Virus record (IMG/VR): IMGVR_UViG_3300046463_000543
Location: 1 to 26,516 of that record
From: a virus
Length of the DNA stretch: 26,516 bases
Direction: 5' to 3' (one strand)
A program made the position numbers and the translations under genes. Shown here piece by piece: positions 5,195 to 23,308 of the stretch (the stretch's first letter is position 1; every line of letters begins with the position of its first letter). The notes beneath the pieces were generated by a model. The model saw nothing but the letters and a program-made list of their open reading frames with translations, made no database searches and was not told where the DNA came from.

Positions 5195-5223
5195 ACGATA
5201 CCGCAACAGTATCTGTAACGCAA
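5195..5223 (-). promoter_or_regulatory. Promoter with embedded operator (GATAC-N7-GTATC)
   Basis: Leftward -35 TTGCGT (5223-5218), 17-nt spacer, -10 TATCGT (5200-5195). The perfect palindrome GATACCGCAACAGTATC at 5197-5213 covers the spacer and -10. The -35 begins 4 nt after the stop of the preceding gene. The same arrangement recurs at 12.2 and 15.5 kb, which is the main support. Confidence 0.75.
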
Positions 5224-5226
5224 TAC

Positions 5227-5586
5227 CTAATTTCGTGTTTTCATGCATAAATCGCGGAAGCGGCGCTGTTCAGCCTCGTATCCGATGAGATTGCGGTGCA
5301 TCCAGACCGGCGATGCACTCCGTTTTGTCTTTCGTTCGATCGCTTCGCGCAGTGCATCGCCTTCGAGCAGGGCATAGCGCACGCGTGACGTCGTGGCGTC
5401 GCGCCAGATGACGCCTTTCGCGACGAGTGCATGCAGCGTGTCGCGTACAGCAGCGCGCGGGCGGTCGTTGAGCAGGGCGAATATCTCGTCGAGCGTGAAC
5501 TGGTAGTTAGGGTCCATTGCCGCGATCATGTCTTCGTGAGCGACGGTCTCGGCGGTGCGTGTACTGCTGATGGCGATGTTTCTCAT
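5227..5586 (-). CDS. Winged-helix DNA-binding protein, 119 aa
   Basis: ATG 5586 overlaps the stop of the Ea22-like gene (ATGA) with GAGGTG upstream; longer readings run over that gene. Residues about 28-75 fit a winged helix: FTLDEIFALLNDRPRAAVRD then TLHALVAKGVIWRDAT and a wing RVRYALLEGD. The C-terminal part (WMHRNLIGYEAEQRRFRDLC) is helical. It is probably a small regulator or DNA-associated accessory protein of the phage. It is the last gene before the promoter at 5195 and its stop lies 4 nt from that promoter's -35 box. Confidence 0.68.
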   Translation of the reverse strand: MRNIAISSTRTAETVAHEDMIAAMDPNYQFTLDEIFALLNDRPRAAVRDTLHALVAKGVIWRDATTSRVRYALLEGDALREAIERKTKRSASPVWMHRNLIGYEAEQRRFRDLCMKTRN

Positions 5587-5948
5587 TTGGCACCTCGCGC
5601 CGCGTCGTTGTACGCGTCCACTGCGTCCATCCCGAACTGAGCGAACAGCCCCTCGCACCGATCGCGGAAGAAGCCATGGAACTCCCGCAGCGCCCGCACC
5701 TCGGCGATAAGGGCGAGGATTACAACCGGATTGGTTGCGGCAATGAATTGCATGTCGCGCCTGCCGCGGCCTGCGTCCCAATGATTCGGCTGAATACCGC
5801 CTGCATCCGGTGCAATGTCAGCCTTGTCGGCGGACGTGTCCACATACCACCCTTCGTCCTTACCGTCATAGCTGCCGTAGTCGACAGCCTCCCACGGTCC
5901 CGGCGTCGCCGCCTTCGCCAGCGCTTCCAGTTTGTCGATGTCGATCAT
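5583..5948 (-). CDS. Ea22-like (Ead) phage protein, 121 aa
   Basis: The N-terminus MIDIDKLEALAKAATPGPWEAV and the later FIAATNPVVILALIAEVRAL are the hallmark blocks of Ead/Ea22-like proteins of lambdoid phages: a helix, an ATPGPW turn, a variable middle, then an xFIAAxNPxxxLxLIAE helix. The length is within the usual range. The biochemical role of the family is unknown; in lambda, ea22 lies in the dispensable early b region. Start ATG overlaps the upstream stop (ATGA). The acidic variable middle contains a Gly/Asp-rich stretch. Confidence 0.82.
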   Translation of the reverse strand: MIDIDKLEALAKAATPGPWEAVDYGSYDGKDEGWYVDTSADKADIAPDAGGIQPNHWDAGRGRRDMQFIAATNPVVILALIAEVRALREFHGFFRDRCEGLFAQFGMDAVDAYNDAARGAK

Positions 5949-6175
5949 GCTTGCTCCTTATCCTTCGTCGCGTATTCGTTGATCTCGATGGCGTCGAGCG
6001 TCGCATCAGTGTGAGCCTTGGTGAATCCGCTGTAGCTGACCCACTTCCGGTATCTCTCAGCGTCGAGCAGTGCGGCGTTGCGCTCCGCCACCACCTTTTC
6101 ATACTCCGCGTGCATCACGAAGATTCCCGAGTCACAGGGCATTGCGCTTGCGCCGTAGCGTTGTGGTCTGGTCAT
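5945..6175 (-). CDS. Hypothetical coiled-coil protein, 76 aa
   Basis: ATG 6175 overlaps the stop of the HNH gene (ATGA). The sequence has a helix AEYEKVVAERNAALLDAERYRKWVS with heptad character, then FTKAHTDATLDAIEINEYATKDKEQA. Small phage proteins of the form (coiled coil)-ERYRxL-(short tail) are frequent in Burkholderiaceae phages, always without known function. Coupled on both sides to neighbours, which supports translation. Longer readings upstream overlap the HNH gene and are rejected. Confidence 0.68.
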   Translation of the reverse strand: MTRPQRYGASAMPCDSGIFVMHAEYEKVVAERNAALLDAERYRKWVSYSGFTKAHTDATLDAIEINEYATKDKEQA

Positions 6176-6603
6176 ACCGTCTCCATCTGTGGTTGTGTGA
6201 TGCCGGTCTCCCGGCGAGTCTGTTCGAGCAATTGCGCCTCGGTTCCGTATAGGCGCTCCCATTCCTCCTGGCCGGCATGGATTGCGACGCCATAACCACC
6301 GATTCGGTGATGCCGCGGGCAAAGCGGGATCGTGTCGAGATTGCTGCTGCGCTGGCCGCCGCCGGCGAGGTAGCGGACGTGATGCACCTCGGCCGGCGAA
6401 TCGCCATAGCCAAGATTTCGGCACACTACGCAGCAGAGTCCCGCGACGACGCCCATGTGTTCGCGCTCAGCCTTTGTCGCAGCCTTCCGCGCGCGCTTCT
6501 TCATCGGCTTGCGCTCCAGTTCCTTCGTCGCGCTGCGAAAGCTGCTGAACGACGCGCCGGGCTTGCGCTTGAATGCGCTTGACTTCAATGCAGAGCGCTT
6601 CAT
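6172..6603 (-). CDS. HNH nuclease, Ref-like (RecA-dependent nuclease family), 143 aa
   Basis: After a basic N-terminal 45 residues (KRARKAATKAEREHM) come a CVVC zinc pair, AEVHHVRY, then TIPLCPRHHR, a His-Ala-Gly segment and ERLYGTEAQLL. This order matches the P1 Ref family of recombination-enhancing, RecA-stimulated HNH nucleases, where LCxxHHR and the final (F/W)ExxYGxxxxLL helix are typical. It would cut DNA near RecA-like filaments during phage recombination. ATG 6603 overlaps the stop of the HTH gene (ATGA) with GGAG about 10 nt upstream. It sits next to NinB and RusA, a recombination context that fits. Confidence 0.78.
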   Translation of the reverse strand: MKRSALKSSAFKRKPGASFSSFRSATKELERKPMKKRARKAATKAEREHMGVVAGLCCVVCRNLGYGDSPAEVHHVRYLAGGGQRSSNLDTIPLCPRHHRIGGYGVAIHAGQEEWERLYGTEAQLLEQTRRETGITQPQMETV

Positions 6604-6995
6604 CGTGCCGACTCCAGCAATCCGGCGAACGGATGCGCGCGGCCATTGCAAGCACTCCTACGCGCCTTGAATACGCCGGAATATTTGCGGTAGTGACGAG
6701 CCGATGCCTGTTGGCGTGCCTCGGTGCGATCCGGCTCCGGCTTGTCGCGCTTGTCGCCAGCAGCGTAGACGGCGCCCCACAAGCCGCTCTTGCCGACCAT
6801 GCGGTGCCAGTCGCAGATGTAGACCTGCTTCGGCGTCTGAGTGCGCAAGATGCGCAGATGGCGACGCACGCCGGTTTCAGCGATGCCGACGATTGCTTGC
6901 AGCTCGATCGCAGTCATCGGCTCCTGTCCGAGCAGTTCGACAATCTTGCGTCGCGTGTCGTTGCGCACGCTGTTCGGATTGAGCTTGCCGGTCAT
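6600..6995 (-). CDS. Helix-turn-helix DNA-binding protein, 131 aa
   Basis: ATG overlaps the NinB stop (ATGA), with GAGGGA upstream. Residues about 14-55 form an ArsR/MarR-like winged helix: RRKIVELLGQEPMTAIELQ then AIVGIAETGVRRHLRIL, followed by a wing (KQVYICDWHRM). The C-terminal half is basic (DKPEPDRTEARQQASARHYRK) and ends unstructured. Likely binds DNA; target unknown. Placement inside the NinB-HNH cluster suggests it belongs to the recombination block, perhaps as its regulator, which is inference. Confidence 0.7.
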   Translation of the reverse strand: MTGKLNPNSVRNDTRRKIVELLGQEPMTAIELQAIVGIAETGVRRHLRILRTQTPKQVYICDWHRMVGKSGLWGAVYAAGDKRDKPEPDRTEARQQASARHYRKYSGVFKARRSACNGRAHPFAGLLESAR

Positions 6996-7438
6996 GCTGC
7001 CAGTCCCTCATATCCGGCCGGAGCGGGGTCTTTCCACTTGACATCGTTTTCGGCGCCAAAGGCATAAAGGAATTCGATGAACTCTGACGCGTGGCGCTTG
7101 CTGAACTTGCGCGTCTGCACGCCAAGCTGCACGAAGCCGGTTCCGTCGAGATTGGGGATGATCGCGCCGACGCCTTGCACCGGATCGCCTTCTGCCGCTT
7201 TCACGCGCGCGAACGCGTCGACGAGCAGGCGCTTCCACGTTTCAAGGTCGCGCATTGATCCCATGAATGGAACTTGAGCGGCGACATCGGCGAACATCGC
7301 GTGATACTTGGCCTGCTGATCGCTAGATTTCGTCGGCGGCTTGATCTCGACTATGAAGCCGTCTGGCGCGTGGATGCATGCGCGGCTCGCTAACTGGCGC
7401 GCGGTGGGATGCACAAGGCGGTAGAGTTGCTTATCCAT
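6992..7438 (-). CDS. ninB: NinB-like recombination mediator (lambda Orf family), 148 aa
   Basis: NinB/Orf binds single-stranded DNA and SSB and can stand in for RecFOR functions in phage recombination. The sequence shows the family layout: LVHPTARQLASRACIHAPDGFIVEI, then a strand-turn KPPTKSSDQQAKYHAMFADVAAQV (the usual TRSxxQNAKxxAMLxDIAxQV block), then DLETWKRLLVDAF and a C-terminal FVQLGVQTRKFSKRHASEFIEFLYAFG. Length (148) is close to lambda NinB. ATG 7438 shares its A with the TGA of rusA, giving tight coupling. Upstream extension to 7465 overlaps rusA and lacks family similarity. Confidence 0.85.
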   Translation of the reverse strand: MDKQLYRLVHPTARQLASRACIHAPDGFIVEIKPPTKSSDQQAKYHAMFADVAAQVPFMGSMRDLETWKRLLVDAFARVKAAEGDPVQGVGAIIPNLDGTGFVQLGVQTRKFSKRHASEFIEFLYAFGAENDVKWKDPAPAGYEGLAA

Positions 7439-7812
7439 CACGCCCCCATGACCATGACTTGGCACCGGCCGCCCTTGACAATGTCGCCGCGCGCGACGAA
7501 TAGCTCGTCGATCTGGCTGTCGTCGTCGTAGACGCCAGCATGCGTCAGCGCATCGAGCGCGGCCTTGACGCGGTTGTCAATGTCGGCCACGCGTCGATCT
7601 CGCATGCTGACGTGCATCGCCACGCACAGGCGCGCATCGCCGAACTTGATGGCTTGGCGCTCGGCAACGATCTCGGCGACGCGCTGGCGGAAGTCCTTTC
7701 CCTCGCGGGTTATATACATGCCCCGCGGCGACTTCCTCCAATATGAATTGATCGACGGCGGAAGGGGGAGCGTTAGAAACTGTGCAACGCCGGATAATGG
7801 ATGGTCTGTCAT
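7438..7812 (-). CDS. rusA: RusA-family Holliday junction resolvase, 124 aa
   Basis: RusA dimers cut four-way DNA junctions. The N-terminal LTLPLPPSINSYWR and the central block RVADIDNRVKAALDALTHAG followed by VYDDDSQIDEL match the family; the catalytic Asp residues are the two in DIDN and one in DDSQ. The C-terminal strand FVARGDIVKGGRCQVMV completes the fold. ATG 7812 overlaps the stop of the TGT-like gene (ATGA) with GGAGG upstream. Lies next to NinB and the Ref-like nuclease, forming a recombination cluster. Confidence 0.92.
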   Translation of the reverse strand: MTDHPLSGVAQFLTLPLPPSINSYWRKSPRGMYITREGKDFRQRVAEIVAERQAIKFGDARLCVAMHVSMRDRRVADIDNRVKAALDALTHAGVYDDDSQIDELFVARGDIVKGGRCQVMVMGA

Positions 7813-8567
7813 GCTGCCTCCAGGGCAAAACCTGTTTGAACCGGCGCCAGTTCTCGTATCCAAAATGTCGGCGACTGATGAGCTTCGATCCGGTCTCGCA
7901 TAACTTGAGCGCGAGATTCCTTGGTCGCTGGTGTGTAAGGTCCGCGCCACTTGCTATCGATGCCGATGTTCTGGCCGATGTTTGTGCTATCTGCGCTGGC
8001 GAACGGAAAGCGCGTGAATACGTCAGGGTCAAGCATGCGGAGACCATGAATCTTGCAAATTGGCCTGCCGCTCTTGTCGCATAGAACATCCATGGCTTCG
8101 GCCATGCGGACATACCAGGCTTGTGATCCCACCGAAGCAAATTCGCCGGAACTGCCTAAACAGATGCGCGGCCATGCGGACGCTAGGCGATCGAGTCGGT
8201 CGAGACTCTCGTGCAAGTGCCATACAGGGGCGCCTATCCACGGCGCGCGCTCGCGCCACGGCCATTCGGCCAGCAGGGCATCGTTTGCTGCTTCATCGCC
8301 ATCAATTACGTCAGGGATGACAGCAAAGTCGAAAGATGGATAGCGATGCAGTTCTGCAACCCATTCATAGAATGGTCGCCAGTCAGTCACTGGATTCCCG
8401 CTGCGCCATGCACTGAAAGCACCGTTGTCGACCGCGAACGTCTGAGCAACATCAATTGCAAGGCCAAGCTGCTCAGGGTGCCGGAAAGAAACAAACGCGT
8501 GACCGCCTGAATAAACTCGCACGGCGGCCGTTGCGGGCGTAATAGGGGAGCCGTGGTAGTGAATCAT
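7809..8567 (-). CDS. TGT/DpdA-like TIM-barrel protein (possible DNA or RNA transglycosylase), 252 aa
   Basis: ATG 8567 overlaps the XRE gene's stop (ATGA). The order of conserved blocks resembles tRNA-guanine transglycosylases: FAVDNGAFSAW in the position of the TGT DSGGFQ block, FAVIPDVIDG like the second Asp block, VWHLHESLDRLDRL like the substrate Gln block, ICLGSSGEFA like AIGGLA, IHGLRMLDPDVF like the MGVGT block, and FASADSTNIGQN where TGT has DxxDCxxPTRNGR. In phages the TGT-related DpdA proteins insert 7-deazaguanines in DNA. No queuosine or preQ0 synthesis gene is nearby, so host precursor would be needed. Assignment is from motif order only. Confidence 0.55.
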   Translation of the reverse strand: MIHYHGSPITPATAAVRVYSGGHAFVSFRHPEQLGLAIDVAQTFAVDNGAFSAWRSGNPVTDWRPFYEWVAELHRYPSFDFAVIPDVIDGDEAANDALLAEWPWRERAPWIGAPVWHLHESLDRLDRLASAWPRICLGSSGEFASVGSQAWYVRMAEAMDVLCDKSGRPICKIHGLRMLDPDVFTRFPFASADSTNIGQNIGIDSKWRGPYTPATKESRAQVMRDRIEAHQSPTFWIRELAPVQTGFALEAA

Positions 8568-8806
8568 GCTCGGCCCCGCTGCACGTAAGGGTTGCACTCG
8601 TGCTCAGTGAGTCCAGCGATGTAATCAAGGCTGACGCCAAAGACGCGCGCTAAATCGGCTGCCATAGTGAGGCCGGGAGCGTGCTCGCTCCGCTCAACCT
8701 GACCGATGTAGCTGGCATGCATGCAAATGCGCTCGCTAACCGTTGCCAACGTCATGCCGCGCTCTTTTCGAATGCGCCGGATACGCTCACCAATGGCCTC
8801 ATTCAT
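8564..8806 (-). CDS. XRE-family helix-turn-helix regulator, 80 aa
   Basis: Residues 3-62 form a typical XRE/Cro-CI HTH: IGERIRRIRKERGMTLATVSERI, then the recognition helix region MHASYIGQVERSEHAPGL and TMAADLARVFGVSLDYIAG. It is a minimal one-domain protein with an 18-residue tail. ATG 8806 overlaps the preceding stop by 8 nt; the frame is open further upstream, but that part overlaps the previous gene. It may regulate part of the early region or a host gene; no operator can be assigned. Confidence 0.82.
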   Translation of the reverse strand: MNEAIGERIRRIRKERGMTLATVSERICMHASYIGQVERSEHAPGLTMAADLARVFGVSLDYIAGLTEHECNPYVQRGRA

Positions 8807-9047
8807 CGCCGCGCACCGTTTCAATATCGACGCCGTGGTGATGTGCGCGCATAGTTTGCAGGCCGCCGAAACGCGAGTGCAGATCATCTGCAATCGCCTC
8901 ATGAAACGCGCGCTTGTGCAGCGCTGCTGCGGTGACAATGTGCTCGACCTGAATTACGGAGCTGGTCTCGATGCATAAGGCGTAGACAATCGCCTTGTCA
9001 TTGTTCGGGCAATGACTCACGAACTCATGGCGGTATATGTTTTTCAC
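8799..9047 (-). CDS. Conserved phage hypothetical protein, 82 aa
   Basis: GTG start at 9047 overlaps the upstream TGA (GTGA). The sequence MKNIYRHEFVSHCPNNDKAI, VYALCIETSSVIQVEHIV, and a final RAHHHGVDIETVRGDE resembles a conserved hypothetical protein in many phages of Gram-negative hosts: a beta strand pair, then FHEAIADDLHSRFGG, then HHHGVDIET. The His cluster (HHH) might bind a metal. Function unknown. The GTG overlap and conserved N-terminus fix the start well. Confidence 0.75.
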   Translation of the reverse strand: MKNIYRHEFVSHCPNNDKAIVYALCIETSSVIQVEHIVTAAALHKRAFHEAIADDLHSRFGGLQTMRAHHHGVDIETVRGDE

Positions 9048-9339: not shown

Positions 9340-9352
9340 GGCGGTTCTCGAC

Positions 9353-9853
9353 TTAGCGAATATCCAAACGCTGGCCGCGAACAAGTCGGCAGCCCGGCAC
9401 TTCAAAGCCGTCTTTCAGCGCGGCGGCGATCAACTTCTTGTCTGGCGCCGGAACTGGCGGCAGTGGATCGGTCTTGTACTCGGCAGGGATCAGGGATTCG
9501 TCGTCGATCTGCACCGCAGCCGGGTTGTCGCGAATCGCGAGCTTGAAAAACGGCGTGTCGATCTTCGGCACGTTCGCCAGCCTCATGCCGTCGAACAGGT
9601 ATTGCTTGACCGACGTTGCACGGTTCTCCAGCGCCTTCGCCCGGTCGAGCATCGCCTTGGCGTGCGCCTTAATCTGCTCTGCGCTGGCCTCGATGTTCTT
9701 GATGACGAAGCCGATGTTCTGCGCCTTCGTCGTCAGATCGCCGCTAATTGATTCCAGCGTATCGCGCACGGTCGTTTCGTCCAGATCCAACTCAGCCAGC
9801 GTGTCGGCTGCATCGCGGTACTCGCGGGAGATTTCGAACAGGTTGAGTGACAT
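9353..9853 (-). CDS. Siphovirus Gp157-family protein, 166 aa
   Basis: The layout is that of Gp157 proteins: MSLNLFEISREYRDAADTL, a central long helix TLESISGDLTTKAQNIGFVI and KNIEASAEQIKAHAKAMLDRAKALENRATSVKQY, then VKQYLFDGMRLANVPKIDTP and FFKLAIRDNPAAVQIDD, ending near IPAEYK. The family occurs next to phage single-strand annealing/Sak4 systems and is linked to phage resistance in streptococci. ATG 9853 with GAGGAAC upstream is 50 nt after the operator-promoter at 9901-9931, so it is the first gene of its unit. Exact activity is unknown. Confidence 0.88.
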   Translation of the reverse strand: MSLNLFEISREYRDAADTLAELDLDETTVRDTLESISGDLTTKAQNIGFVIKNIEASAEQIKAHAKAMLDRAKALENRATSVKQYLFDGMRLANVPKIDTPFFKLAIRDNPAAVQIDDESLIPAEYKTDPLPPVPAPDKKLIAAALKDGFEVPGCRLVRGQRLDIR

Positions 9854-9900
9854 TTCGGTTCCTCTTGTTTGATCTGTGCGGCGGTATCGGTACATGCATA

Positions 9901-9931
9901 AAGATACCATGCCGGTATCTGTAGCGGTCAA
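9901..9931 (-). promoter_or_regulatory. Promoter with embedded operator (GATAC-N7-GTATC)
   Basis: Perfect 17-bp palindrome GATACCATGCCGGTATC at 9903-9919. Leftward -10 TATCTT (9906-9901); -35 TTGACC (9931-9926) with a 19-nt spacer, preceded by an A7 tract that is also the end of the upstream gene (its TGA lies in AAATTTGACC). Drives the Gp157 gene. Confidence 0.72.
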
Positions 9932-11660: not shown

Positions 11661-11897
11661 CTAGCTCACCTTGACGTGCAGGAAATGGCGCGCGATGTAG
11701 TGGGGCACGTAGCCGCTGCTGATCGCTACGCGGGGCTGCACACCGCGACGAGCGAGATCGGCTTTGGCTGCACGCTGGCGCTGCTCAGTGCGCGCGCAGA
11801 GTGCTTTGTATTCGGCGTCAAGAATCTCGGATTGCGACAGGCGCACGTTCGTCTGAACGTGGCGAAGGTCATTCAACGATTTGGCGATCAGTTGCAT
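11661..11897 (-). CDS. Hypothetical protein, 78 aa
   Basis: ATG 11897 has GGAG 8 nt upstream and overlaps the stop of the membrane protein before it. It starts MQLIAKSLNDLRHVQTNVRL, continues SQSEILDAEYKALCARTEQR and ends PHYIARHFLHVKVS. The first 55 residues look like two helices, the second a possible coiled coil; the end is a short beta segment. No family recognised. Confidence 0.62.
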   Translation of the reverse strand: MQLIAKSLNDLRHVQTNVRLSQSEILDAEYKALCARTEQRQRAAKADLARRGVQPRVAISSGYVPHYIARHFLHVKVS

Positions 11898-12115
11898 TGC
11901 AGGCTCCGGGAGAAACTCAATACGATCATCACGGCGAGAGCCATTGCGCACGCGCCAGCAGAGAAAGCGAGAAACAGGTCGTTGACCTTGCAAACGCTAG
12001 CTACTACGGTATCCGTCACGTACAAATTTTTTTCCGCAGCGTCGGACTGACGTGCGCGGAAAATCGTTGCGGAGCGTAATAATAACGCGTTCTTGAGGCT
12101 GCAGGCTATGTTCAT
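11888..12115 (-). CDS. Small single-span membrane protein, up to 75 aa
   Basis: One clear membrane segment near the C-terminus, LFLAFSAGACAMALAVMIVL, precedes a short tail (SFSRSLQCN). ATG 12115 has GGAAG about 11 nt upstream and would give a 45-residue N-terminal part that is unremarkable. A degenerate copy of the dispersed promoter-operator (GGTATC at 12008-12013) lies inside this N-terminal part, so translation may instead start further in. It follows the promoter at 12168-12196. Role unknown; small phage membrane proteins of this kind often affect host physiology or exclusion. Confidence 0.5.
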   Translation of the reverse strand: MNIACSLKNALLLRSATIFRARQSDAAEKNLYVTDTVVASVCKVNDLFLAFSAGACAMALAVMIVLSFSRSLQCN

Positions 12116-12167: not shown

Positions 12168-12196
12168 AGGATACTAAAACGGTATCTGTAACGCAA
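12168..12196 (-). promoter_or_regulatory. Promoter with embedded operator (GATAC-N7-GTATC)
   Basis: Perfect palindrome GATACTAAAACGGTATC at 12170-12186. Leftward -35 TTGCGT (12196-12191), 17-nt spacer, -10 TATCCT (12173-12168). Upstream lies AAAAAAATTGACGC, an A-tract like that of the 9.9-kb copy. The preceding gene ends at 12227, about 30 nt before the -35. Confidence 0.78.
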
Positions 12197-14908: not shown

Positions 14909-15115
14909 TTAGAAGGCTAGAACTTCGTCGCAATGGCGGCGAAACGAGTTAATATTTTCGGACGTTGCTTCCTCAACGCGCGAAACCTCGCCATCATTCC
15001 CGCTCAAGAACGTTTCAAAAGCCGCCTTGCTGGCTTCGTCTGCGCCTTCGTGATCGTCAATTTCGACCAACACCGATTTCCATATCGCTATATCGACTTT
15101 GAACCACTTACTCAT
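14909..15115 (-). CDS. Small acidic protein, 68 aa
   Basis: Two adjacent ATGs are possible (15118 and 15115); the second has GGAGG at 6 nt and is preferred. The protein starts MSKWFKVDIAIWKSVLVEID, a beta pair, followed by acidic loops and a helix (EEATSENINSFRRHCDEVL). It resembles other short phage proteins with a VxVxVxID strand but no family is certain. Confidence 0.62.
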   Translation of the reverse strand: MSKWFKVDIAIWKSVLVEIDDHEGADEASKAAFETFLSGNDGEVSRVEEATSENINSFRRHCDEVLAF

Positions 15116-15414
15116 CATTCACCTCCAGCCAGACGGCGCTTAACGAGCGTTTCCTTCGCATCGGTAAGCAGCGTGTGAATCGTGTGCAGGTCGTCTTTCT
15201 CACCGCGCGCCAGTGCCTGCATGAATTCCTCGCGCTGCACGCCGTTCAGCTCGACCAGCAGTTCCATCAGGTCGTCGAACGTGACTCCGCGCTCGATCTG
15301 TTCGCGGCGGTCGTGTGCGGCAAGGGCTGCGTTGTCGGCCGCTTCGAGATCGCGGTCGAACAGCCAATTGCCGTATGCTTGCGTGCGGGAAACTAACTGC
15401 GGTACGTGGCTCAT
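15115..15414 (-). CDS. Hypothetical protein, 99 aa, first gene of the 15.5-kb unit
   Basis: ATG 15414 with AAGGACGG upstream lies about 60 nt downstream of the operator-promoter. The N-terminal part MSHVPQLVSRTQAYGNWLFD is followed by long helices (LEAADNAALAAHDRREQIER, LMELLVELNGVQREEFMQAL). The extension to 15513 would cross the promoter and is rejected. Function unknown; all-helical fold is expected. Confidence 0.66.
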   Translation of the reverse strand: MSHVPQLVSRTQAYGNWLFDRDLEAADNAALAAHDRREQIERGVTFDDLMELLVELNGVQREEFMQALARGEKDDLHTIHTLLTDAKETLVKRRLAGGE

Positions 15415-15472: not shown

Positions 15473-15501
15473 ACGATACCGTAACAGTATCCGTCACGCA
15501 A
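15473..15501 (-). promoter_or_regulatory. Promoter with embedded operator (GATAC-N7-GTATC)
   Basis: Perfect palindrome GATACCGTAACAGTATC at 15475-15491. Leftward -35 TTGCGT (15501-15496), 17-nt spacer, -10 TATCGT (15478-15473). The preceding gene's TGA is directly followed by AAAAATCGC, then the -35, so only 8 nt separate stop and promoter. Confidence 0.8.
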
Positions 15502-16417: not shown

Positions 16418-16680
16418 GCTGGCTCCTTGATGTCGTCGGTCACTTCGTCGTTTACAGGAACGCCGCTTATGGGGCGAAGCCATGCGTCTGGAACATCCAA
16501 TTCGACGAGAAGCGAGTCATCCGTCATGACCAGAGGCGACGTTGCTTTAACATTCCAAGAAGGCCCGAATTCGCTATCGAATCCAAAGAACGATTTGACT
16601 TCGACGACCTTTCCGGCATTTGGACTAGGGCTTTCCATGCCGGCGACTATATAAGCGAGATCCCCAGGTTTTACGTTCAT
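16414..16680 (-). CDS. SH3-like conserved phage protein, 88 aa
   Basis: ATG 16680 overlaps the upstream stop (ATGA). VKPGDLAYIVAGMESPSPNA and GKVVEVKSFFG form an SH3/KOW-like barrel start, and WLRPISGVPVNDEV closes the domain. The pattern KPGDLAxI.......GxVVxV...W.V is frequent in small phage proteins. It probably acts as a protein-interaction module; role unknown. Confidence 0.72.
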   Translation of the reverse strand: MNVKPGDLAYIVAGMESPSPNAGKVVEVKSFFGFDSEFGPSWNVKATSPLVMTDDSLLVELDVPDAWLRPISGVPVNDEVTDDIKEPA

Positions 16681-17072: not shown

Positions 17073-17200
17073 GCGGTCTCCGACGTGCAGGAAAGAGGAT
17101 GGGCACCGTAGTAAAGGCGGAAGTGGCCGATGCCGAATGTGCCGAGCAGCGCGAGCACGAGAACGATGGCGCCGACTACGGACAGGACAGTTTTTGTCAC
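17069..17200 (-). CDS. Small membrane protein, 43 aa
   Basis: GTG 17200 overlaps the TGA of the mosaic gene (GTGA) with GGAG 7 nt upstream; the stop overlaps the next ATG. After TKT the sequence VLSVVGAIVLVLALLGTFGI is a single membrane helix, followed by GHFRLYYGAHPLSCTSETA. The topology is probably short N-terminus in, C-terminus in the periplasm. Function unknown. Confidence 0.68.
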   Translation of the reverse strand: MTKTVLSVVGAIVLVLALLGTFGIGHFRLYYGAHPLSCTSETA

Positions 17201-18006
17201 TTGGCGTCTCCGCTTGCGGATTGAGCGGCGGCCAAAAACTCGCGAAGCTGGTCCGTGTTGTCGAAAATCCAGCCGTCTGCCGCAGTCCTGCATTCACACG
17301 CTTGAATCGCGCACGCAGCAATCTCGGCGTCGGTGAGCGCTGTCTGTGCTGGCGGGGCGGTGTCGCATAGCGGATGATGAAAGCCTTTCCAATCCCCCAG
17401 GCGTTGGCATTTGCACGTTTCCACCGCCTCCGCACCCTGCGCCACATTGGCGGATACGATTTGCCGCAATGTTTCCTCTACCCAATGGAATCCATTAGCG
17501 CCCATCACGTCAGCCGCTTGTGTGACGGCAGATTTCTGTTCGTCAGTCAGAAAACCCTGCGCCACATTGGCGGAAGTTGATGCGGCGCGGGCAAGCGCTG
17601 CCCGTTGCGCGGTATCTGCGAACACTACGGCGTCTTTCCTGCGAGCACCAACTCCGTGCGGCGCATGCTGCATTGTGTCCATGAGGTCGTTAAGCTCGAC
17701 AAAATTCAACGCCCCGCGCTCGTCCTGCTCGACCTCTTCACGCGTTACTGCGGCCTCTTGCTTGTCTATAGCGGCAGGCTGGCGGGCGTCGGCCGGATCG
17801 TGATTCACATCGCAATCCGCGATGCATCCCTTTATTTGAGCAATAGCAAGCCGGATTTGCTCCGCTGCTTGCGCCGGATCGGACCCGTTATCGAGCCATC
17901 GAGCCGTGCATTCCAATGCGAATACCGCGTGCTCAAGGTCAGTTTTTTCAGTCGTACTGTATTTTTGTACAGTACTTTGTCCTAAAGATGCCTCGTTAGT
18001 GTTCAT
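17197..18006 (-). CDS. Mosaic hypothetical protein with SANVAQG repeats, 269 aa
   Basis: ATG 18006 with AAGGAA upstream follows the operator-promoter at 18089. The N-terminal half is helical and acidic (LEHAVFALECTARWLDNGSD). The second half contains two SANVAQG copies, FLTDEQKSAVTQAADVMGAN, a Cys pair (CKCQRL), APPAQTALTDAEI and ends AAAQSASGDAK. Parts are identical at DNA level to the 444-aa gene 16 kb away: 39 bp at 17554-17592 equals 1827-1865. Both genes look like assemblies of exchangeable modules joined by the same linkers. Function unknown. Confidence 0.72.
   Translation of the reverse strand: MNTNEASLGQSTVQKYSTTEKTDLEHAVFALECTARWLDNGSDPAQAAEQIRLAIAQIKGCIADCDVNHDPADARQPAAIDKQEAAVTREEVEQDERGALNFVELNDLMDTMQHAPHGVGARRKDAVVFADTAQRAALARAASTSANVAQGFLTDEQKSAVTQAADVMGANGFHWVEETLRQIVSANVAQGAEAVETCKCQRLGDWKGFHHPLCDTAPPAQTALTDAEIAACAIQACECRTAADGWIFDNTDQLREFLAAAQSASGDAK
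17554..17592. repeat. 39-bp exact repeat of 1827-1865 (ARAASTSANVAQG linker)
   Basis: A 39-bp identical stretch is found here and at 1827-1865; a 25-bp part (17430-17454) is found a third time and matches 1823-1847. All three encode a SANVAQG linker in two different proteins. Such identity across 16 kb in otherwise unrelated genes implies recent copying or recombination. Confidence 0.8.
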
Positions 18007-18069: not shown

Positions 18070-18105
18070 GATACCGTCATTATAAACGGATACTACCACG
18101 GTATC
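18070..18105 (-). promoter_or_regulatory. Promoter with operator GATAC-N7-GTATC plus extra half-site
   Basis: Perfect palindrome GATACTACCACGGTATC at 18089-18105 and an additional GATACC half at 18070-18075. A consensus leftward -10 TATAAT (18084-18079) lies between them; no good -35 is visible at 17 nt, where the palindrome sits. The dnaB stop is followed by AACAATTTTTTGCG, the A/T tract of this copy. Confidence 0.68.
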
Positions 18106-18127: not shown

Positions 18128-19507
18128 TCAGTCCATTCCACGGCTGCGGGCTCTCGGGCGGTCAGGTTCGGAGCGCTGACCGAATGCATGACCGTGCGCC
18201 AGATCCTCGAACAGCGTTCGCTCTCCGTGGAAAACCAAGCCGGTGATGCCGGTTTCGCCCTGTCGTTGCTTAGTGCAGATGACCTCGCAAATGCCCTTGT
18301 CTGGCGAGTCGGGGTTGTACACCTCGTCGCGGTACAGGAACAGGATCGTGTCGGCGTCGGCTTCGATGTCGCCGGAATCCTTCAGGTCAGACGAGAGAGG
18401 GCGCTTGTTCGGCCGTTCCTCGCACTTGCGCGAGAGCTGCGACAGCAAGACTACGGGCACGTCGAGTTCCTTCGCGAGGTTCTTCAGCCCCTTCGTCAAC
18501 GCGCCGATTTGCAGGTCGCGGCGTTCTTCGCTGCCCGTAGCCATCAGGCCCAGATAGTCGACAACGAGCAACGACAGCCCATGCTTGCGCTTGACAGCGC
18601 GCGCCTTGCTGCGCACTTCGAGCAGCGTCAGGTTCGGTTGGTCATCAAGGTACAGGTGCAGGTCCTTGATCGTTTTCGCCGCTTCGGTGATCTCGTGCCA
18701 GTGCGATTGATCCAGGCTGGCAGGGTCGCGCAACTGCGCCATCGTCACGCCGCTAACCGACGACACAAGGCGTTGCTGTAGCTGAACGTTCTTCATTTCC
18801 ATCGACAGAAACAGGACCGGCATATCGCGCGATACGTTCTGTGCAACGGTCAACGAGAACGCGGTCTTGCCCATTGATGGGCGCGCGGCGACGATCACCA
18901 GATCACCGCCATAGAAGCCGCCGCCGAGTTTGCGATCAAGGTCCGTAAGGCCGGTAGGTACGGGCTTTATCAGGCCGTCTATCTGCTGATCCATGTAATC
19001 CAGATAGTCGGCAAGCGACTGGCCGGCGTGCACTGGCTCCGACTTGACGATCGCCTCGCCAAGCTTTTCCAGCTTGGCCGATGCCTGGTCGATCAGTACG
19101 GCCGCGCTGTCAGGCGTTGCGCCGACTGAATCCTGAATCTCGTGCGACAGAGCTAGCAGGCCGCGCTTCTGCGCACGGTCGCGCACGATCTCCGCATACC
19201 GCGTAATGTTCGCCGAACTAGGCGTGTTCTGCGATAACGCGTTCAGGTACGCGAGGCCGCCGGCGTCCGCGGCGCGCCCTTTGGCTTGCAGGCGTTCGAA
19301 CACGGTCATCATGTCCGCGCCAACGCTCGCAGAGATCAGGTCGACAATCTCGGTGAAGATCAGCCGATGGTCGGCGCGAAAGAAGTGTTCAGCGCGCAGA
19401 TCGCCAAGGCGGTCGATCGCATCGTTGTCGATCAGCAGGGCGCCGATGACCGATTGCTCAGATTCAATGCTTTGCGGGATGGAGCGTTGCAGTTCGTTGG
19501 CGCTCAT
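18128..19507 (-). CDS. dnaB: Replicative DNA helicase DnaB, 459 aa
   Basis: Hexameric helicase that moves 5' to 3' on the lagging-strand template. N-terminal domain: SIPQSIESEQSVIGALLID. ATPase core: Walker A ARPSMGKTAFS near residue 210, Walker B LLVVDYLGLM, H4-type VVLLSQLSR, and the arginine-finger region TKQRQGETG near residue 430. Length is normal for DnaB. ATG 19507 overlaps the stop of the O-like gene (ATGA). Together with the O-like initiator and its iterons it forms a lambda/P22-type replication module; carrying its own DnaB removes the need for a P-type loader. Confidence 0.95.
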   Translation of the reverse strand: MSANELQRSIPQSIESEQSVIGALLIDNDAIDRLGDLRAEHFFRADHRLIFTEIVDLISASVGADMMTVFERLQAKGRAADAGGLAYLNALSQNTPSSANITRYAEIVRDRAQKRGLLALSHEIQDSVGATPDSAAVLIDQASAKLEKLGEAIVKSEPVHAGQSLADYLDYMDQQIDGLIKPVPTGLTDLDRKLGGGFYGGDLVIVAARPSMGKTAFSLTVAQNVSRDMPVLFLSMEMKNVQLQQRLVSSVSGVTMAQLRDPASLDQSHWHEITEAAKTIKDLHLYLDDQPNLTLLEVRSKARAVKRKHGLSLLVVDYLGLMATGSEERRDLQIGALTKGLKNLAKELDVPVVLLSQLSRKCEERPNKRPLSSDLKDSGDIEADADTILFLYRDEVYNPDSPDKGICEVICTKQRQGETGITGLVFHGERTLFEDLAHGHAFGQRSEPDRPRARSRGMD

Positions 19508-20514
19508 GCTGCTTTCCTCTGTCGGTGTGCGCCTTCTCTGGCGCGTAAGTAGGTTTCCTGCCGGATGAGCCAGTCAAATCCGCAAGCGTCGAATGGTTCC
19601 ATGTTGCCAGCGCAGTACTCGAAATACTTGCGGGCCATGTCCGGTATGTCGCGGAACCCAAGAAATTCGCGGATTGCAGTAGCGCGCGGTGCGCTGTACG
19701 GCTCGGCAACAGCCCGCGGCCACTCAGGCCCCATCAGGTCGTTGTAAAGCTCGATCACTTCCAACTCCTTCGCGTCGTATTCCGTCTTGCCAGCAGAATC
19801 CAGCCAGCCCTCAGCATTGATCCACGAAGCCGGCAGAGGGATGAACTGACCGTCGTCTCGCTTCCAGTCGCTGCGGGTCGTCATCGCCAGGTTCACGGCG
19901 TCGATCATGGTCTGCACGAGAGCGTCGTCCGGGTTCAGTTTTTCAAACGCTTTCAGAGCCGCTTTCCTGTTCCGCTTTTTCGGGTATGCAGCGTAGAAGC
20001 GGTCGAAACGTTCGTGCTGCACGGCAGTGCTGCACATGTCTTTTGGAGTTGTCTTTTGATTGTCTTTAAAACCTTTCTTTTGTGGTTGCTGATTCGGTAA
20101 CCCCGAAATGACCAATTCGGTAACCCCTTCGTGACCGTTTTGGTAACCCCCCGTTACCACTTCGGTAACCGGTTGCTCTTTCGGTAACCGGGTTACTGAT
20201 TCGGTAACCCCCCATTGCTTGTGGTTCTTGTTCAGGCCGAGTTCTTTGGCGTGGTGTCCGTCCGTTCGCACAAGGATTTTCATCTCGACCAGTTCGGTGA
20301 CGGTGCGGCTGCAATGCGGCTTGGCGATGCCAGTCATCGCGCTAAGTTGGGACAGTCCAATCTCGTCGGATTTTTTGTTAAATCCATACGTCTTGCGGAC
20401 TACGGCCATCACAATGGCCCATTGGCGCGAAGAAAGTCCCGCCCGCAACAGAGCGTCCAGAAGCTCATTGGCGAGCCTGGTGTAGCCGTTTTCGAGTTGC
20501 GGGTTCGCGACCAT
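19504..20514 (-). CDS. Phage replication initiator, lambda O-like, 336 aa
   Basis: The N-terminus fits the Phage_rep_O winged helix: GYTRLANELLDALLRAGLSS, RQWAIVMAVVRKTYGFNKKS, QLSAMTGIAKPHCSRTVTEL. This domain binds origin iterons. The middle (residues about 100-140) is the translated iteron array, giving repeated VTE segments (GVTESVTRLP, PVTEVVTGG, GVTELVI). The C-terminal half, with FDRFYAAYPKKRNRKAALKA, is common in phage initiators and presumably contacts DnaB. ATG 20514 shares its A with the upstream TGA. The origin lies inside the coding sequence, as in lambda. Confidence 0.88.
   Translation of the reverse strand: MVANPQLENGYTRLANELLDALLRAGLSSRQWAIVMAVVRKTYGFNKKSDEIGLSQLSAMTGIAKPHCSRTVTELVEMKILVRTDGHHAKELGLNKNHKQWGVTESVTRLPKEQPVTEVVTGGYQNGHEGVTELVISGLPNQQPQKKGFKDNQKTTPKDMCSTAVQHERFDRFYAAYPKKRNRKAALKAFEKLNPDDALVQTMIDAVNLAMTTRSDWKRDDGQFIPLPASWINAEGWLDSAGKTEYDAKELEVIELYNDLMGPEWPRAVAEPYSAPRATAIREFLGFRDIPDMARKYFEYCAGNMEPFDACGFDWLIRQETYLRAREGAHRQRKAA
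20041..20209. other. ori: Putative replication origin: iterons plus AT-rich stretch
   Basis: TTCGGTAACC occurs at 20093, 20116, 20161, 20180 and 20200 and as TTTGGTAACC at 20139, with spacings of 23, 23, 22, 19 and 20 bp; inverted GGTAAC pieces lie at about 20152 and 20190. Next to the array, 20041-20090 is AT-rich (TTTTGATTGTCTTTAAAAC). The arrangement, iterons then AT-rich DNA inside the O-like gene, is that of lambda ori. Confidence 0.85.
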
Positions 20515-20651
20515 CAGTCAGGCCCGCGCGAAGACATGCCGCGGTAACTCTCAGGGTGGCAGCGTAACGAAGGGCTGCGCAAAGTAAAGCTGACCTTGTA
20601 GATGCCGGGCATCGCGTCGCTTTGAAGTACAAACCCAAATCCGTGATTCAT
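20514..20651 (-). CDS. Short GIY-YIG/T5orf172-like fragment, 45 aa
   Basis: ATG 20651 overlaps the stop of the 36-aa gene (ATGA); its TGA shares a base with the O-like ATG. The sequence GFGFVLQSDAMPGIYKVSFT followed by LRSPSLR resembles the first half of T5orf172-type GIY-YIG domains (Y-V-L-x-S-x(2)-MPGLxKIGFTxRSPxxR), but the protein stops after 45 residues and lacks the rest. Either a truncated remnant kept for coupling or a small protein using half the fold. Function unknown. Confidence 0.5.
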   Translation of the reverse strand: MNHGFGFVLQSDAMPGIYKVSFTLRSPSLRCHPESYRGMSSRGPD

Positions 20652-20758
20652 TTCCTGGCCCCCGCAATCAGTTGCTTCAGTGATTCGCAAAGCTTGTGAA
20701 CCTGCGCCTGCTTTGCGGCCTTGTTCTTGAGGTGCGCGATATTTCTGGCCATAGCCAT
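20648..20758 (-). CDS. Small basic helical protein, 36 aa
   Basis: ATG 20758 (or 20752) opens MAMARNIAHLKNKAAKQAQV then HKLCESLKQLIAGARK, a single strongly basic amphipathic helix. Its TGA overlaps the next ATG. No clear ribosome-binding site is visible, so translation might depend on the upstream gene. Similar short MARNIAHLKNK-like peptides near phage replication genes are plausible but I cannot name a family. Confidence 0.55.
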   Translation of the reverse strand: MAMARNIAHLKNKAAKQAQVHKLCESLKQLIAGARK

Positions 20759-20774
20759 TTAAAGATCGGCTATA

Positions 20775-20794
20775 GCCCGCGCGGGTACGCGGGC
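20775..20794. other. Strong hairpin after the Cro-like gene
   Basis: GCCCGCG-6 nt-CGCGGGC forms a perfect 7-bp stem 5 nt after the stop of the Cro-like gene. Leftward it is not followed by a T-run; rightward it is followed by TTCTCTC. It could be a weak terminator or an attenuator between the first regulator and the replication genes, in the position of lambda tR1. Confidence 0.5.
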
Positions 20795-20799
20795 TTCTC

Positions 20800-21120
20800 T
20801 CATTGGTCGTCCTGTTCGGTTGGCTCGGCCGCGACGGCCGGCAGATCGGGGATTGCTTCGATGACGGCCGGGCCGCGCGCTTTGCCGACGAGCTTCGGCA
20901 TTTCGTGGCGCAGGCCGATCATGTCGATGACGGTCAGGTGCGGCTTGTTCGGTCCAACTAACTGCGCGCTGACTCGTGCGAATTCGAGCGCGCGTTTCTT
21001 GCCGACCACCTTGTGACCGTTGCGGATGTTGCTCCAGTAGATCGGGCCAATGCCGATGTGGTCGAGCAGCTGGTTGACCACCTTCGCCCCGTATGCATCG
21101 TGAAATTCTTGTGCGTTCAA
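20800..21120 (-). CDS. Cro-like HTH regulator, first gene of the leftward early region, 106 aa
   Basis: I place the start at TTG 21120: AGGAG lies 7 nt upstream, whereas the nearer ATG (21125) reads ATG AAT TGA and stops at once. Residues 10-55, VVNQLLDHIGIGPIYWSNIR then NGHKVVGKKRALEFARVSAQ, align in pattern with the HTH of the divergent CI-like protein (YLSNLNTGSKTIGLRTAREI). The C-terminus is Pro/Glu-rich. Position, size and divergence from the repressor fit a Cro-type regulator. The operator at 21168 lies in its promoter region. Confidence 0.68.
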   Translation of the reverse strand: MNAQEFHDAYGAKVVNQLLDHIGIGPIYWSNIRNGHKVVGKKRALEFARVSAQLVGPNKPHLTVIDMIGLRHEMPKLVGKARGPAVIEAIPDLPAVAAEPTEQDDQ

Positions 21121-21132
21121 TTCATGGCTCCT

Positions 21133-21200
21133 TTGCCGGGTTATAATTGCAATACAGTATAGCATCGGATACCGTGACGGTTAGCGTTTAGGATGAAATT
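21133..21200. promoter_or_regulatory. Divergent control region between Cro-like and CI-like genes
   Basis: Leftward -10 candidates TATACT (21164-21159) and TATAAC; rightward TATAAT at 21142 and TTGCAA-N17-TACCGT (from 21148). The palindrome GATACCGTGACGGTTAG at 21168-21184 is a degenerate member of the GATAC-N7-GTATC family. A second small palindrome ATACAGTAT is at 21152-21160. This is the expected place for the immunity switch. Confidence 0.6.
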
Positions 21201-21218
21201 TTGTCGGGAGATAACCCT

Positions 21219-21338
21219 ATGAACTTATTGAAAAATGATGCCTTTACGGTTGCATTTGCAGCCGGAAACCTTCAAGATTTCACGAACGGATGCCGCGATT
21301 TAATCGGGACAGGCATCCCACCAAGTGGCGTGCCTTGA
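21219..21338 (+). CDS. Leader peptide-like protein, 39 aa
   Basis: ATG 21219 has GGGAG 8 nt upstream, the best ribosome-binding site in this region. The peptide MNLLKNDAFTVAFAAGNLQD continues FTNGCRDLIGTGIPPSGVP and stops 33 nt before the CI-like gene. It would be the first translated frame of the repressor transcript. No family recognised. It may be a real small protein or a leader whose translation affects the repressor. Confidence 0.55.
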   Translation: MNLLKNDAFTVAFAAGNLQDFTNGCRDLIGTGIPPSGVP

Positions 21339-21370
21339 CGCGCCCTATACGACTAAGGATTGGGAATCAC

Positions 21371-21808
21371 ATGGCTATCGAAACGATCGACGCATTGCGC
21401 GCACGAAACTTCCACCTGCTTTTCGAGCAGTTCAAGGAAGGGGTGAGAAGGGATGACCCGACCGCGCCCGATCGGGGAATGCTGAGGCGCTTCGCTGCGC
21501 ACCTGGAAATGAACCCGGTCTACCTGTCGAACCTGAACACAGGATCGAAGACGATCGGACTGCGGACGGCGCGCGAGATTGAGTCCCGGCTGAAGCTGCC
21601 GGAAGGCTGGATGGACACGGACCACAGCAACAACGAAGCCGAGATGAGCGATGACGACCTGGCGTTCCGTGATTCGGTGATGGCGATGTACCGGCAGGCG
21701 CCCGAGGCGTCGCGCGCGGCCGTTCTCCGGGTGCTTCAGGCTCTTGTCCTGGGTAAACCCATAGAGGACGTACTTTCTACCGACAGATTCCGCAAGAAAG
21801 CGAATTAG
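21371..21808 (+). CDS. CI-like repressor with HTH, no peptidase domain, 145 aa
   Basis: ATG 21371 (MAIETIDALRARNFHLLFEQ) is preferred to an in-frame ATG at 21290, which lacks a ribosome-binding site and lies inside the 39-aa gene region. Residues 35-80: GMLRRFAAHLEMNPVYLSNL then NTGSKTIGLRTAREIESRLK form a Cro/CI-type HTH. The C-terminal 50 residues (FRDSVMAMYRQAPEASRAAV) are helical and probably dimerise the protein. There is no S24 (LexA-like) self-cleaving domain, so induction would not be by RecA-stimulated autocleavage. Best candidate to bind the dispersed GATAC-N7-GTATC sites. Confidence 0.72.
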   Translation: MAIETIDALRARNFHLLFEQFKEGVRRDDPTAPDRGMLRRFAAHLEMNPVYLSNLNTGSKTIGLRTAREIESRLKLPEGWMDTDHSNNEAEMSDDDLAFRDSVMAMYRQAPEASRAAVLRVLQALVLGKPIEDVLSTDRFRKKAN

Positions 21809-21832
21809 ACGCGCGCAAACATTTGCGGATTG

Positions 21833-21861
21833 TTGCAACCGCTGAAAATGTAAAATATTGT
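21833..21861 (+). promoter_or_regulatory. Possible promoter for the 68-aa gene
   Basis: TTGCAA (21833-21838), 17-nt spacer, TATTGT (21856-21861) in an AT-rich stretch. A GATACC half-site lies further downstream at 21933. No perfect operator is present. Prediction by eye only. Confidence 0.35.
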
Positions 21862-21964
21862 ATCGAAACTTGTTGCGAGAGCGGGACTGGTGCGGATATT
21901 ATTACATCACCGCTTAAGTCTTTGCGGGAAAAGATACCGGTTGCGCAATCCAGAGAGGCATCAG

Positions 21965-22171
21965 ATGACGAGTTCTAGCACTGCTGGCAGTACAGAAAAA
22001 AACAACGCTGCCGCTGGTGTACTGGCGGAAGGCTTACGCAGCGACGATAGCGAATACCAGATCGCCGCCGCTGCCGCCGCCATCCCTGCGCATATTCGCC
22101 GGGAGGTTCTGGCCCACTTGCGCGAGCTTATTTGCGCCGACGCAACGCACACCGTGGCGGTATGCAAATAG
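21965..22171 (+). CDS. Hypothetical protein, 68 aa
   Basis: ATG 21965 has GAGAGG 6 nt upstream. The N-terminus is Ser/Thr-rich (MTSSSTAGSTEKNNAAAG), followed by helices (GLRSDDSEYQIAAAAAAIPA, HIRREVLAHLRELICADATH). No motif points to a function. It is the last rightward protein gene before the RNA-rich region, directly upstream of the promoter at 22175. Confidence 0.62.
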   Translation: MTSSSTAGSTEKNNAAAGVLAEGLRSDDSEYQIAAAAAAIPAHIRREVLAHLRELICADATHTVAVCK

Positions 22172-22174
22172 TGC

Positions 22175-22203
22175 TTGCGATACTGTGAAGGTTTTGATAC
22201 GAT
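22175..22203 (+). promoter_or_regulatory. Rightward promoter with degenerate operator
   Basis: TTGCGA (22175-22180), 17-nt spacer, TACGAT (22198-22203). GATACTGTGAAGGTTTT (22179-22195) is a half-preserved member of the operator family and GATAC recurs at 22196. It lies just after the 68-aa gene and before two terminators, so it may make a short RNA. Confidence 0.5.
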
Positions 22204-22209
22204 TTATCT

Positions 22210-22312
22210 AGCATGTCGTTTTTGCGTCTAGCGAGGCGGTGTGTTCATGTTGGTTCCGTTCGTAGATCCCCAGATCTACTTTCCGCTCTCCTGATGGATT
22301 GAGCGGCTTTTT
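22210..22312 (+). ncRNA. Possible ~100-nt leader or small RNA
   Basis: Between the promoter at 22175 and the terminator at 22283 there is no reading frame of note but a perfect 7-bp hairpin GTAGATC-CCCA-GATCTAC (22262-22279). The layout promoter, structured leader, terminator(s) resembles the lambda pR'-tR' arrangement. Existence and ends are inferred. Confidence 0.35.
22283..22312 (+). terminator. Intrinsic terminator
   Basis: CCGCTC, 12-nt loop, GAGCGG, then CTTTTT on the rightward strand. First of two terminators in a row. Confidence 0.75.
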
Positions 22313-22320
22313 ACAAGTTG

Positions 22321-22352
22321 GCCCTCGCTCGATGAAAGTCGGCGGGGGCTTT
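22321..22352 (+). terminator. Second intrinsic terminator
   Basis: GCCCTCGC pairs with GCGGGGGC (8 bp, one G-U) around a 13-nt loop and is followed by TTTGCATTT. Back-to-back terminators fit a strong block at the end of the repressor transcript or a late-gene leader. Confidence 0.7.
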
Positions 22353-22519
22353 GCATTTGATGGCTGCGCATAGCGCGCTACTGGTAATGCCGGTTCGACT
22401 CCGGCTCGTTAGCCGAGGTTCGGTAAGGGAAGGCGGGTTCGAATCCCGCACATGTGCCGGGTCAGGTATCCGGCTGTGTAGCCGATGGATCGGCGGGCTT
22501 GGCAGCCGGGAAAGACCGG

Positions 22520-22610
22520 CGCTCTCATTGCTGGCTCTTCGCCGCGTAACCGGTGAGAAGTCCCATCCCGTCCTTACGCAAAGGGCAGCGAGGGGCTAGC
22601 CATGAGAGCG
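22520..22610 (+). promoter_or_regulatory. Long-range stem that hides a start codon
   Basis: CGCTCTCAT (22520-22528) is the perfect complement of ATGAGAGCG (22602-22610), which contains the ATG of the 16-codon frame; GGCT (22533) with AGCC (22598) extends it, and GCGTAA (22544)/TTACGC (22574) is nested inside. A second partner, CGCTCTCA (22704-22711), lies downstream, so two exclusive pairings are possible. Confidence 0.45.
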
Positions 22611-22652
22611 AATGCGCAGGCTGCTGCGCCTGTAACACCGAAGCCGAAGTAA
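22602..22652 (+). CDS. Possible 16-residue peptide
   Basis: ATG 22602 with GAGGGG 7 nt upstream encodes MRANAQAAAPVTPKPK and stops with TAA. The Ala-rich start and Pro/Lys tail do not suggest a fold. The start codon is inside the long-range stem at 22520-22610, so translation may be controlled by structure. It is equally possible that this is not translated. Confidence 0.3.
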   Translation: MRANAQAAAPVTPKPK

Positions 22653-22722
22653 AAGTAGCGTGCAGGCGAAGTCAACGTGACTGCAAGCCGGGTTAGCACC
22701 GGCCGCTCTCAATCAAGCAAAA

Positions 22723-22741
22723 AGCCAGCGCAAGGCTGGCT
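22723..22741 (-). terminator. Leftward intrinsic terminator
   Basis: AGCCAGC, 5-nt loop, GCTGGCT is a perfect 7-bp stem; leftward it is followed by TTTTTGCTT. It ends the small leftward operon (22751-23059) and faces the rightward RNA region. Confidence 0.75.
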
Positions 22742-22750
22742 CTCTGCGAT

Positions 22751-22792
22751 CTATAACCGCAGCACAGGATTCCTCTGCAGGCGCGCCGTCAT
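22751..22792 (-). CDS. Possible 13-residue peptide
   Basis: ATG 22792 with AGGCGG 5 nt upstream encodes MTARLQRNPVLRL and ends 10 nt before the terminator stem. It follows the 30-aa gene closely. Too short to be sure; included because of the ribosome-binding site and position. Confidence 0.25.
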   Translation of the reverse strand: MTARLQRNPVLRL

Positions 22793-22801
22793 GGCGACCG
22801 C

Positions 22802-22894
22802 CTACGCGTTAGCGATCTGCTGTTCTCGCCGGTCGGTTGGTGGACTACCGACCGGCTGACGTAATAAGCGGAGATGCAGGTTAGTCGAGTTCAT
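22802..22894 (-). CDS. Small protein, 30 aa
   Basis: ATG 22894 has AAGGAACGGAAG upstream. It encodes MNSTNLHLRLLRQPVGSPPT then DRREQQIANA. No motif. It lies between the 42-aa acidic gene and the leftward terminator; the operon setting supports it. Confidence 0.4.
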   Translation of the reverse strand: MNSTNLHLRLLRQPVGSPPTDRREQQIANA

Positions 22895-22930
22895 GGCTTC
22901 CGTTCCTTATGGTTGTGACTTCGTGGTGAT

Positions 22931-23059
22931 TCAGTCGCTGTCGGCGTCGCTATCGTCGGCGTCGTCGTCCAGCTCAGGCTCGCCATAGCTCTCGTCGCAA
23001 TAGCGAGCGGCAACACGCGCAAGGTCTGATTCGACCGCAGTGTCGAAAGCTGTTTTCAT
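22931..23059 (-). CDS. Small acidic-tail protein, 42 aa
   Basis: ATG 23059 has AGGAG 7 nt upstream. MKTAFDTAVESDLARVAARY is a helix; the tail after CDESYGEPEL is a run of Asp/Ser/Ala (DDDADDSDADSD). Tails of this kind can mimic DNA or bind basic proteins. First gene of a small leftward operon whose control region contains the near-operator at 23194. Function unknown. Confidence 0.6.
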   Translation of the reverse strand: MKTAFDTAVESDLARVAARYCDESYGEPELDDDADDSDADSD

Positions 23060-23193
23060 GGCGCACTCCTAATGATCCTGAGATACGTTGAAGAAGGCCC
23101 TAGGTGCTTCTGGTGCGCGCGCCCGATGAACGGGCGTCGTTGCTGCGATCCTGACGACAAACTCGATTGCCGTAGATCAGCACATGACCGAAT

Positions 23194-23308
23194 GATGCCA
23201 TAACGGTATCTTTGAGTGCGAGAAGTTTTTGTTACAGGTTGTATTCGTGGATAGTGTTGCGCGTTTTGTGTTCGCTGGCGCACATTGCACGGATACCGTG
23301 AAAGCATC
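23194..23308. promoter_or_regulatory. Second divergent control region with two near-operators
   Basis: GATGCCATAACGGTATC (23194-23210) and GATACCGTGAAAGCATC (23292-23308) each match the 17-bp GATAC-N7-GTATC palindrome with one substitution. They flank an 80-bp spacer between the leftward 42-aa gene and the rightward small genes. Clear -10/-35 boxes are not evident; the leftward side has AAAAACTTC upstream. Confidence 0.6.

Follow-up and report, generated by a model that had tools for sequence, protein, structure and literature searches.

A Dispersed Family of Palindromic Putative Operators in the Early Promoters of an Uncultured Temperate Phage Group

Palindromes of the Early Region

The window, that is, the whole stretch of DNA analysed here, is a 26.5-kb virus fragment from IMG/VR (IMGVR_UViG_3300046463_000543; 26,516 nucleotides), whose leftward (minus-strand) early region codes for a methyltransferase, a Gam/Gp157-like protein, SSB, a Sak4-like protein, DnaB, and an O-like initiator. 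An initial annotation had placed five perfect copies of GATAC-N7-GTATC between genes, directly after the stop of the preceding gene, and this description is borne out. The window has exactly five perfect copies (at 5197, 9903, 12170, 15475, and 18089), where 0.022 would be expected (Poisson p about 4e-11), and the reversed pattern, used as a control, has 0 matches in the window. All five are intergenic and belong to the leftward early region, lying 8–40 nt past the upstream stop codon and 49–82 nt ahead of the following start codon. Moreover, GATAC-N7-GTATC ranks first among the inverted repeats of the window when all 5-mers are compared at gaps of 0–13. The element, hereafter referred to as the operator, is a symmetric 17-bp palindrome with the consensus GATACYRYNRYRGTATC.

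The altered copies that had been listed alongside the perfect ones are likewise present, and their places are conserved in relatives. The copy at 21168–21184 (minus strand; GATACCGTGACGGTTAG) carries three mismatches but keeps its left half intact, and sits in the promoter of a Cro-like gene within a divergent immunity region, with TATACT just downstream. On the plus strand, the copy at 22179–22195 has two mismatches and overlaps a rightward promoter-like TTGCGA-17-TACGAT, while those at 23194–23210 and 23292–23308 have one mismatch apiece and mark the start of the right arm; the latter, 98 bp past the former, is preceded by TTGCAC 1 nt upstream and lies before the first right-arm genes.

Other sequence features were observed in the window. 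A cluster of GGTAAC/GTTACC repeats at 20090–20215, inside the O-like initiator gene (19504–20514), probably represents origin iterons as in lambda O. A repeated stretch (ccctgcgccacattggcgga) at 1790–1870 and 17430–17600, in the genes 1383–2717 and 17197–18006, encodes protein repeats of the ANVAQG type. The interval 22300–22720 comprises about 400 bp devoid of clear genes, contains the T-arm-like ggttcgactcc and ggttcgaatcc, and is for the most part about 96% conserved in the related contig G001; ARAGORN and Rfam gave no matches in it, and no RNA families or tRNAs were found.

Promoter Elements at the Sites

The promoter elements that had been read at four of the perfect copies are as described, namely TTGCGT with a 17-nt spacer at three of them and TTGACC with a 19-nt spacer at the fourth. 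Thus, the operator at 5197–5213 (minus strand, as are all five perfect copies) lies in the promoter TTGCGT-17-TATCGT of the gene 4809–5144, that at 12170–12186 in the promoter TTGCGT-17-TATCCT, which serves 11888–12115 and, further along, the Sak4-like and SSB genes, and that at 15475–15491 in the promoter TTGCGT-17-TATCGT of 15115–15414 and the genes beyond, whereas the operator at 9903–9919 is associated with TTGACC-19-TATCTT, after an A-tract, in the promoter of the Gam/Gp157-like gene 9353–9853. The operator at 18089–18105 represents a class of another register, with a conserved TTGCGA 14 nt upstream, TATAAT/TATACT 4 nt after the palindrome, and then a conserved second half-site at 18070–18077.

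Across the seven related contigs referred to below as clade 1, the commonest form is TTGCGT-17-TATCNT, in which the palindrome covers the spacer and the -10, and the -10 TATCNT is present at most sites. At 45 of the 48 perfect clade-1 sites, the early strand has a TTG ahead of the palindrome, at a distance of 10, 12, or 14 nt, versus 4 of 48 on the opposite strand. Weak hexamers characterise the palindrome promoters, none of which is picked up by a strict sigma-70 consensus scan, so their function as promoters is argued from position and conservation; judged from sequence, the sites seem to overlap early promoters.

Both G001 (10847/10706) and the window (12170/12006) have a leader ORF that contains a second promoter–operator copy, 141–164 bp further downstream than the first. 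In G001 this second copy is perfect, while in the window it is reduced to a half operator with an A-tract and TTG (12006–12013, minus strand) in ORF 11888–12115, apparently a decayed remnant. The copies of this class in G001, G005, and G016 are located inside predicted ORFs whose starts are uncertain, as is a single 9903-class copy in G001. Read in frame, the leader-ORF-embedded copies (11990–12056 in the window and L039:10706–10863 in G001) give EKNLxxTDTVxxSV. Duplication of leaders was considered and discarded, since in the window 5' leader similarity above background is confined to the pair 5197 and 12170.

Conservation in Two Clades

The two divergent HTH proteins of the immunity region served as queries against IMG/VR to retrieve relatives, and numerous metagenomic contigs, as long as 54 kb, were obtained. 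Clade 1 consists of seven related metagenomic phage contigs, the window included, amounting to about 268 kb. The motif search that the initial annotation had proposed for the phage and its relatives found 48 perfect sites in clade 1, all with a spacer of 7, while the other spacers between 0 and 15 gave none; the sites occupy orthologous places and do not occur elsewhere. Each complete early region holds eight perfect sites, with six in G002 and fewer in the shorter pieces; the 5197 site, for instance, has orthologues in G001, G002, G003, G005, G016, and G018. With a weight matrix, weaker conserved sites emerge at 22179, 23194, and 23292, whose positions are kept in G001, G003, and G005, and in the vicinity of the integrase; the 21168 copy is conserved as well, and both there and at 18089 the operator and its -10 remain paired. 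The class at 16535, seen in G001 and not in the window, adjoins the integrase gene, on whose strand a good promoter match is present. An integrase is present in six relatives, which shows a temperate life style, and the group is one of uncultured, myophage-like temperate bacteriophages. The late structural genes of G001 are on the plus strand; a gene predicted to encode a lipoprotein, located where its late region ends (L039:9838–10803), lies under two of the operators and may be one that CI silences in the lysogen.

In clade 2 (G012 and G013), where CI is 49–50% identical, relaxed sites, mostly with one mismatch, accompany the same genes. They are located after DnaB (G012 5858/G013 4388, orthologous to 18089), after the homologue of the HTH gene 15510 (7572/6609, orthologous to 15475), before the Gam-like gene (9835/8659, orthologous to 9903), after the homologue of 5227 (13358/12221, orthologous to 5197), and in the divergent region (3241/1343, corresponding to 21168). 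The strict promoter–operator block has 0 matches in 257 Gb of GTDB genomes. Prophages of the group in these bacterial genomes were considered and discarded, as CI relatives were likewise absent from them, and isolated phages and plasmids gave only distant HTH matches. The sites, their positions, their conservation, the register of the promoter elements, and the absence elsewhere can be read directly from these sequences. Altogether, the seven clade-1 contigs, the second clade, the directional TTG, the constant spacer of 7, and the absence from GTDB strongly support, at the level of sequence, the proposal that dispersed operators are built into the early promoters. The possibility that the operators act as recombination joints of a mosaic early region was rejected, as homology breakpoints are not enriched near the sites (P>0.2 in five of six genomes and P=0.02 in one).

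The CI/Cro-Type Pair as Candidate Binders

The divergent region comprises a CI-like gene on the plus strand (21371–21808) and a Cro-like gene on the minus strand (20800–21117) with the operator 21168 between them, and this arrangement is kept in clade 2. The Cro-like HTH protein, of 105 aa with a TTG start, has a positional counterpart of 31–36% identity in clade 2. The CI-like repressor (145 aa) has an HTH domain, is assigned to the regulator family phrog_5736, and matches phage CI structures in the PDB, with a weak profile match to the repressor 5d50 (SPC32H Rep). It has no peptidase family match, S24 included, and the C-terminal peptidase-like domain of its longer relative L019 is missing; the predicted CI structure is of low confidence (pLDDT 57).

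The HTH regions of both proteins match each other, the CI recognition helix is largely conserved in clade 2, and the CI and Cro-like genes co-occur with the sites in both clades. This conservation fits CI and Cro as the probable binders and does not prove it. Conservation also extends to other HTH and wHTH proteins of the early region, and exclusion therefore does not single out the binder. The small XRE gene at 8564–8806 was also considered as the binder and was ruled out, as it is missing from all relatives.

A Possible Route to Induction

Since CI lacks the S24 self-cleavage domain, induction probably needs an inactivator or antirepressor. Exactly one SOS (LexA-type) box is found in each of the seven clade-1 contigs, against 0 by chance, and it is missing in clade 2. 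In the window it spans 17955–17974 (TACTGTATTTTTGTACAGTA), in the 5' end of ORF 17197–18006 and hence within an ORF rather than intergenic, downstream of the operator 18089, and it is kept while neighbouring codons vary. This box is a candidate trigger that would link induction to DNA damage. Gifsy phages carry non-cleavable repressors that are inactivated by LexA-controlled antirepressors encoded outside the immunity region (PMC3121763). By analogy, a putative antirepressor encoded in the unit below operator 18089 is a reasonable idea, although no antirepressor gene was identified.

Proposed Mechanism and Alternative Explanations

With a probability of roughly 85%, the palindrome serves as operator for a CI/Cro-type pair encoded by the phage itself, with CI silencing each early promoter through the spacer and -10. 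Each early transcription unit would have a promoter with one built-in operator, and further copies would serve the divergent immunity promoter, the neighbourhood of the integrase, and the start of the right arm. CI dimers would, in the lysogen, cover each promoter's spacer and -10 and keep RNA polymerase out, and silencing would thus proceed promoter by promoter and not via one or two master promoters. As the same palindrome occupies the promoter of nearly every early block, one repressor could probably silence the whole early region. After infection or induction, the Cro-like protein would probably act at the same sites and lower early transcription, while CI would be disabled by an inactivator, with the SOS-box unit next to operator 18089 as the candidate link to DNA damage. 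A more far-reaching version is considerably more tentative, namely a decentralised switch in which one small non-cleavable CI, together with Cro, governs about a dozen promoter-embedded operators, including those of the integrase region and the right arm, with no master promoter plus antitermination and with the single SOS-box unit as the only entry for DNA damage.

The covering of the spacer and -10, where repressors act, is also what renders it unlikely that the palindromes are instead sites of an early activator or timing regulator of the phage, such as the products of the HTH genes 15510, 16121, 16677, or 6600. These genes are conserved in clade 1, with 15510 and 6600 also present in clade 2, and weak hexamers are frequent in activated promoters; nevertheless, the CI/Cro divergent region itself holds a copy, and the sites accompany CI and the Cro-like gene in both clades. 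Sites that chiefly block elongating polymerase between genes, as the stoperators of cluster A mycobacteriophages do, would account for dispersed, intergenic positions directly past stop codons and for the lack of enrichment of terminator-like sites between the units, which have no clear terminator bounds and are thus only presumptively separate in transcription. However, the present sites are symmetric and have the one-strand TTG at a fixed distance noted above (45/48), while L5 sites are asymmetric and monomer-bound (PMC9283540), which makes this explanation still less probable, although blocking of read-through may be a second effect of the sites.

It is very hard to sustain that the motif is a signal for DNA modification, segregation, or packaging. 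A bipartite palindrome with a fixed spacer would suit such a role, and a cytosine methyltransferase is encoded at 3695–4711, but the motif occurs only upstream of early units, with none in the long late region, and its promoter register is constant. The reading preferred here, namely operators of the CI/Cro-type pair, would provide a test bed for how one repressor coordinates many promoters, as the operator is defined, a CI/Cro pair is at hand as the candidate, and the two clades supply natural variants; the same variants bear on how early gene blocks may be gained or lost without rewiring control.

Comparison with Known Systems

Lambda shares the divergent arrangement of CI- and Cro-like genes around an operator, but its six operators are located at two promoter regions, and it lacks dispersed repeats. 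Moreover, lambda CI is self-cleaved, whereas the present CI lacks the S24 autocleavage domain. A de novo inverted-repeat test found no dispersed repeats in lambda, the negative control, and 15 copies of ACTCACGTGAGT in phiC31, the positive control. The repressor of about 150 aa without a peptidase resembles those of the Gifsy/SPC32H type; the many dispersed operators, and the failure to identify an antirepressor gene here, set the present phages apart from that type.

Dispersed operators as such are not new, and the novelty implied by the initial annotation was overstated. In P1, one C1 repressor serves 22 dispersed 17-bp operators (PMC8546580), and 18–30 dispersed repressor sites have been reported in phiC31 and L5 (PMC4557955); the present system thus follows a known strategy. 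P1 is likewise a temperate phage of Gram-negative bacteria with many genome-dispersed 17-bp operators for one repressor, but its operators are asymmetric, whereas here there are a symmetric palindrome, a nearly fixed promoter register, and a divergent immunity region of the CI/Cro type. The phiC31 sites are also dispersed, perfect inverted repeats, yet they occur in the late region as well, and the phiC31 repressor is larger, has three isoforms, and is located after structural genes with no divergent CI/Cro pair. The L5 stoperators, 13-bp sites that are oriented with transcription and stop elongation (PMC9283540), share with the present family the many intergenic repressor sites; the contrast drawn earlier with them holds, as the sites here are 17 bp long, symmetric, and embedded in promoters. 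The present phages, an uncultured myophage-like group, would join the small number of phages known for promoter-by-promoter lysogenic silencing, and what is new is the combination, in such a group, of symmetric promoter-embedded operators with a small peptidase-less CI and a Cro-like partner.
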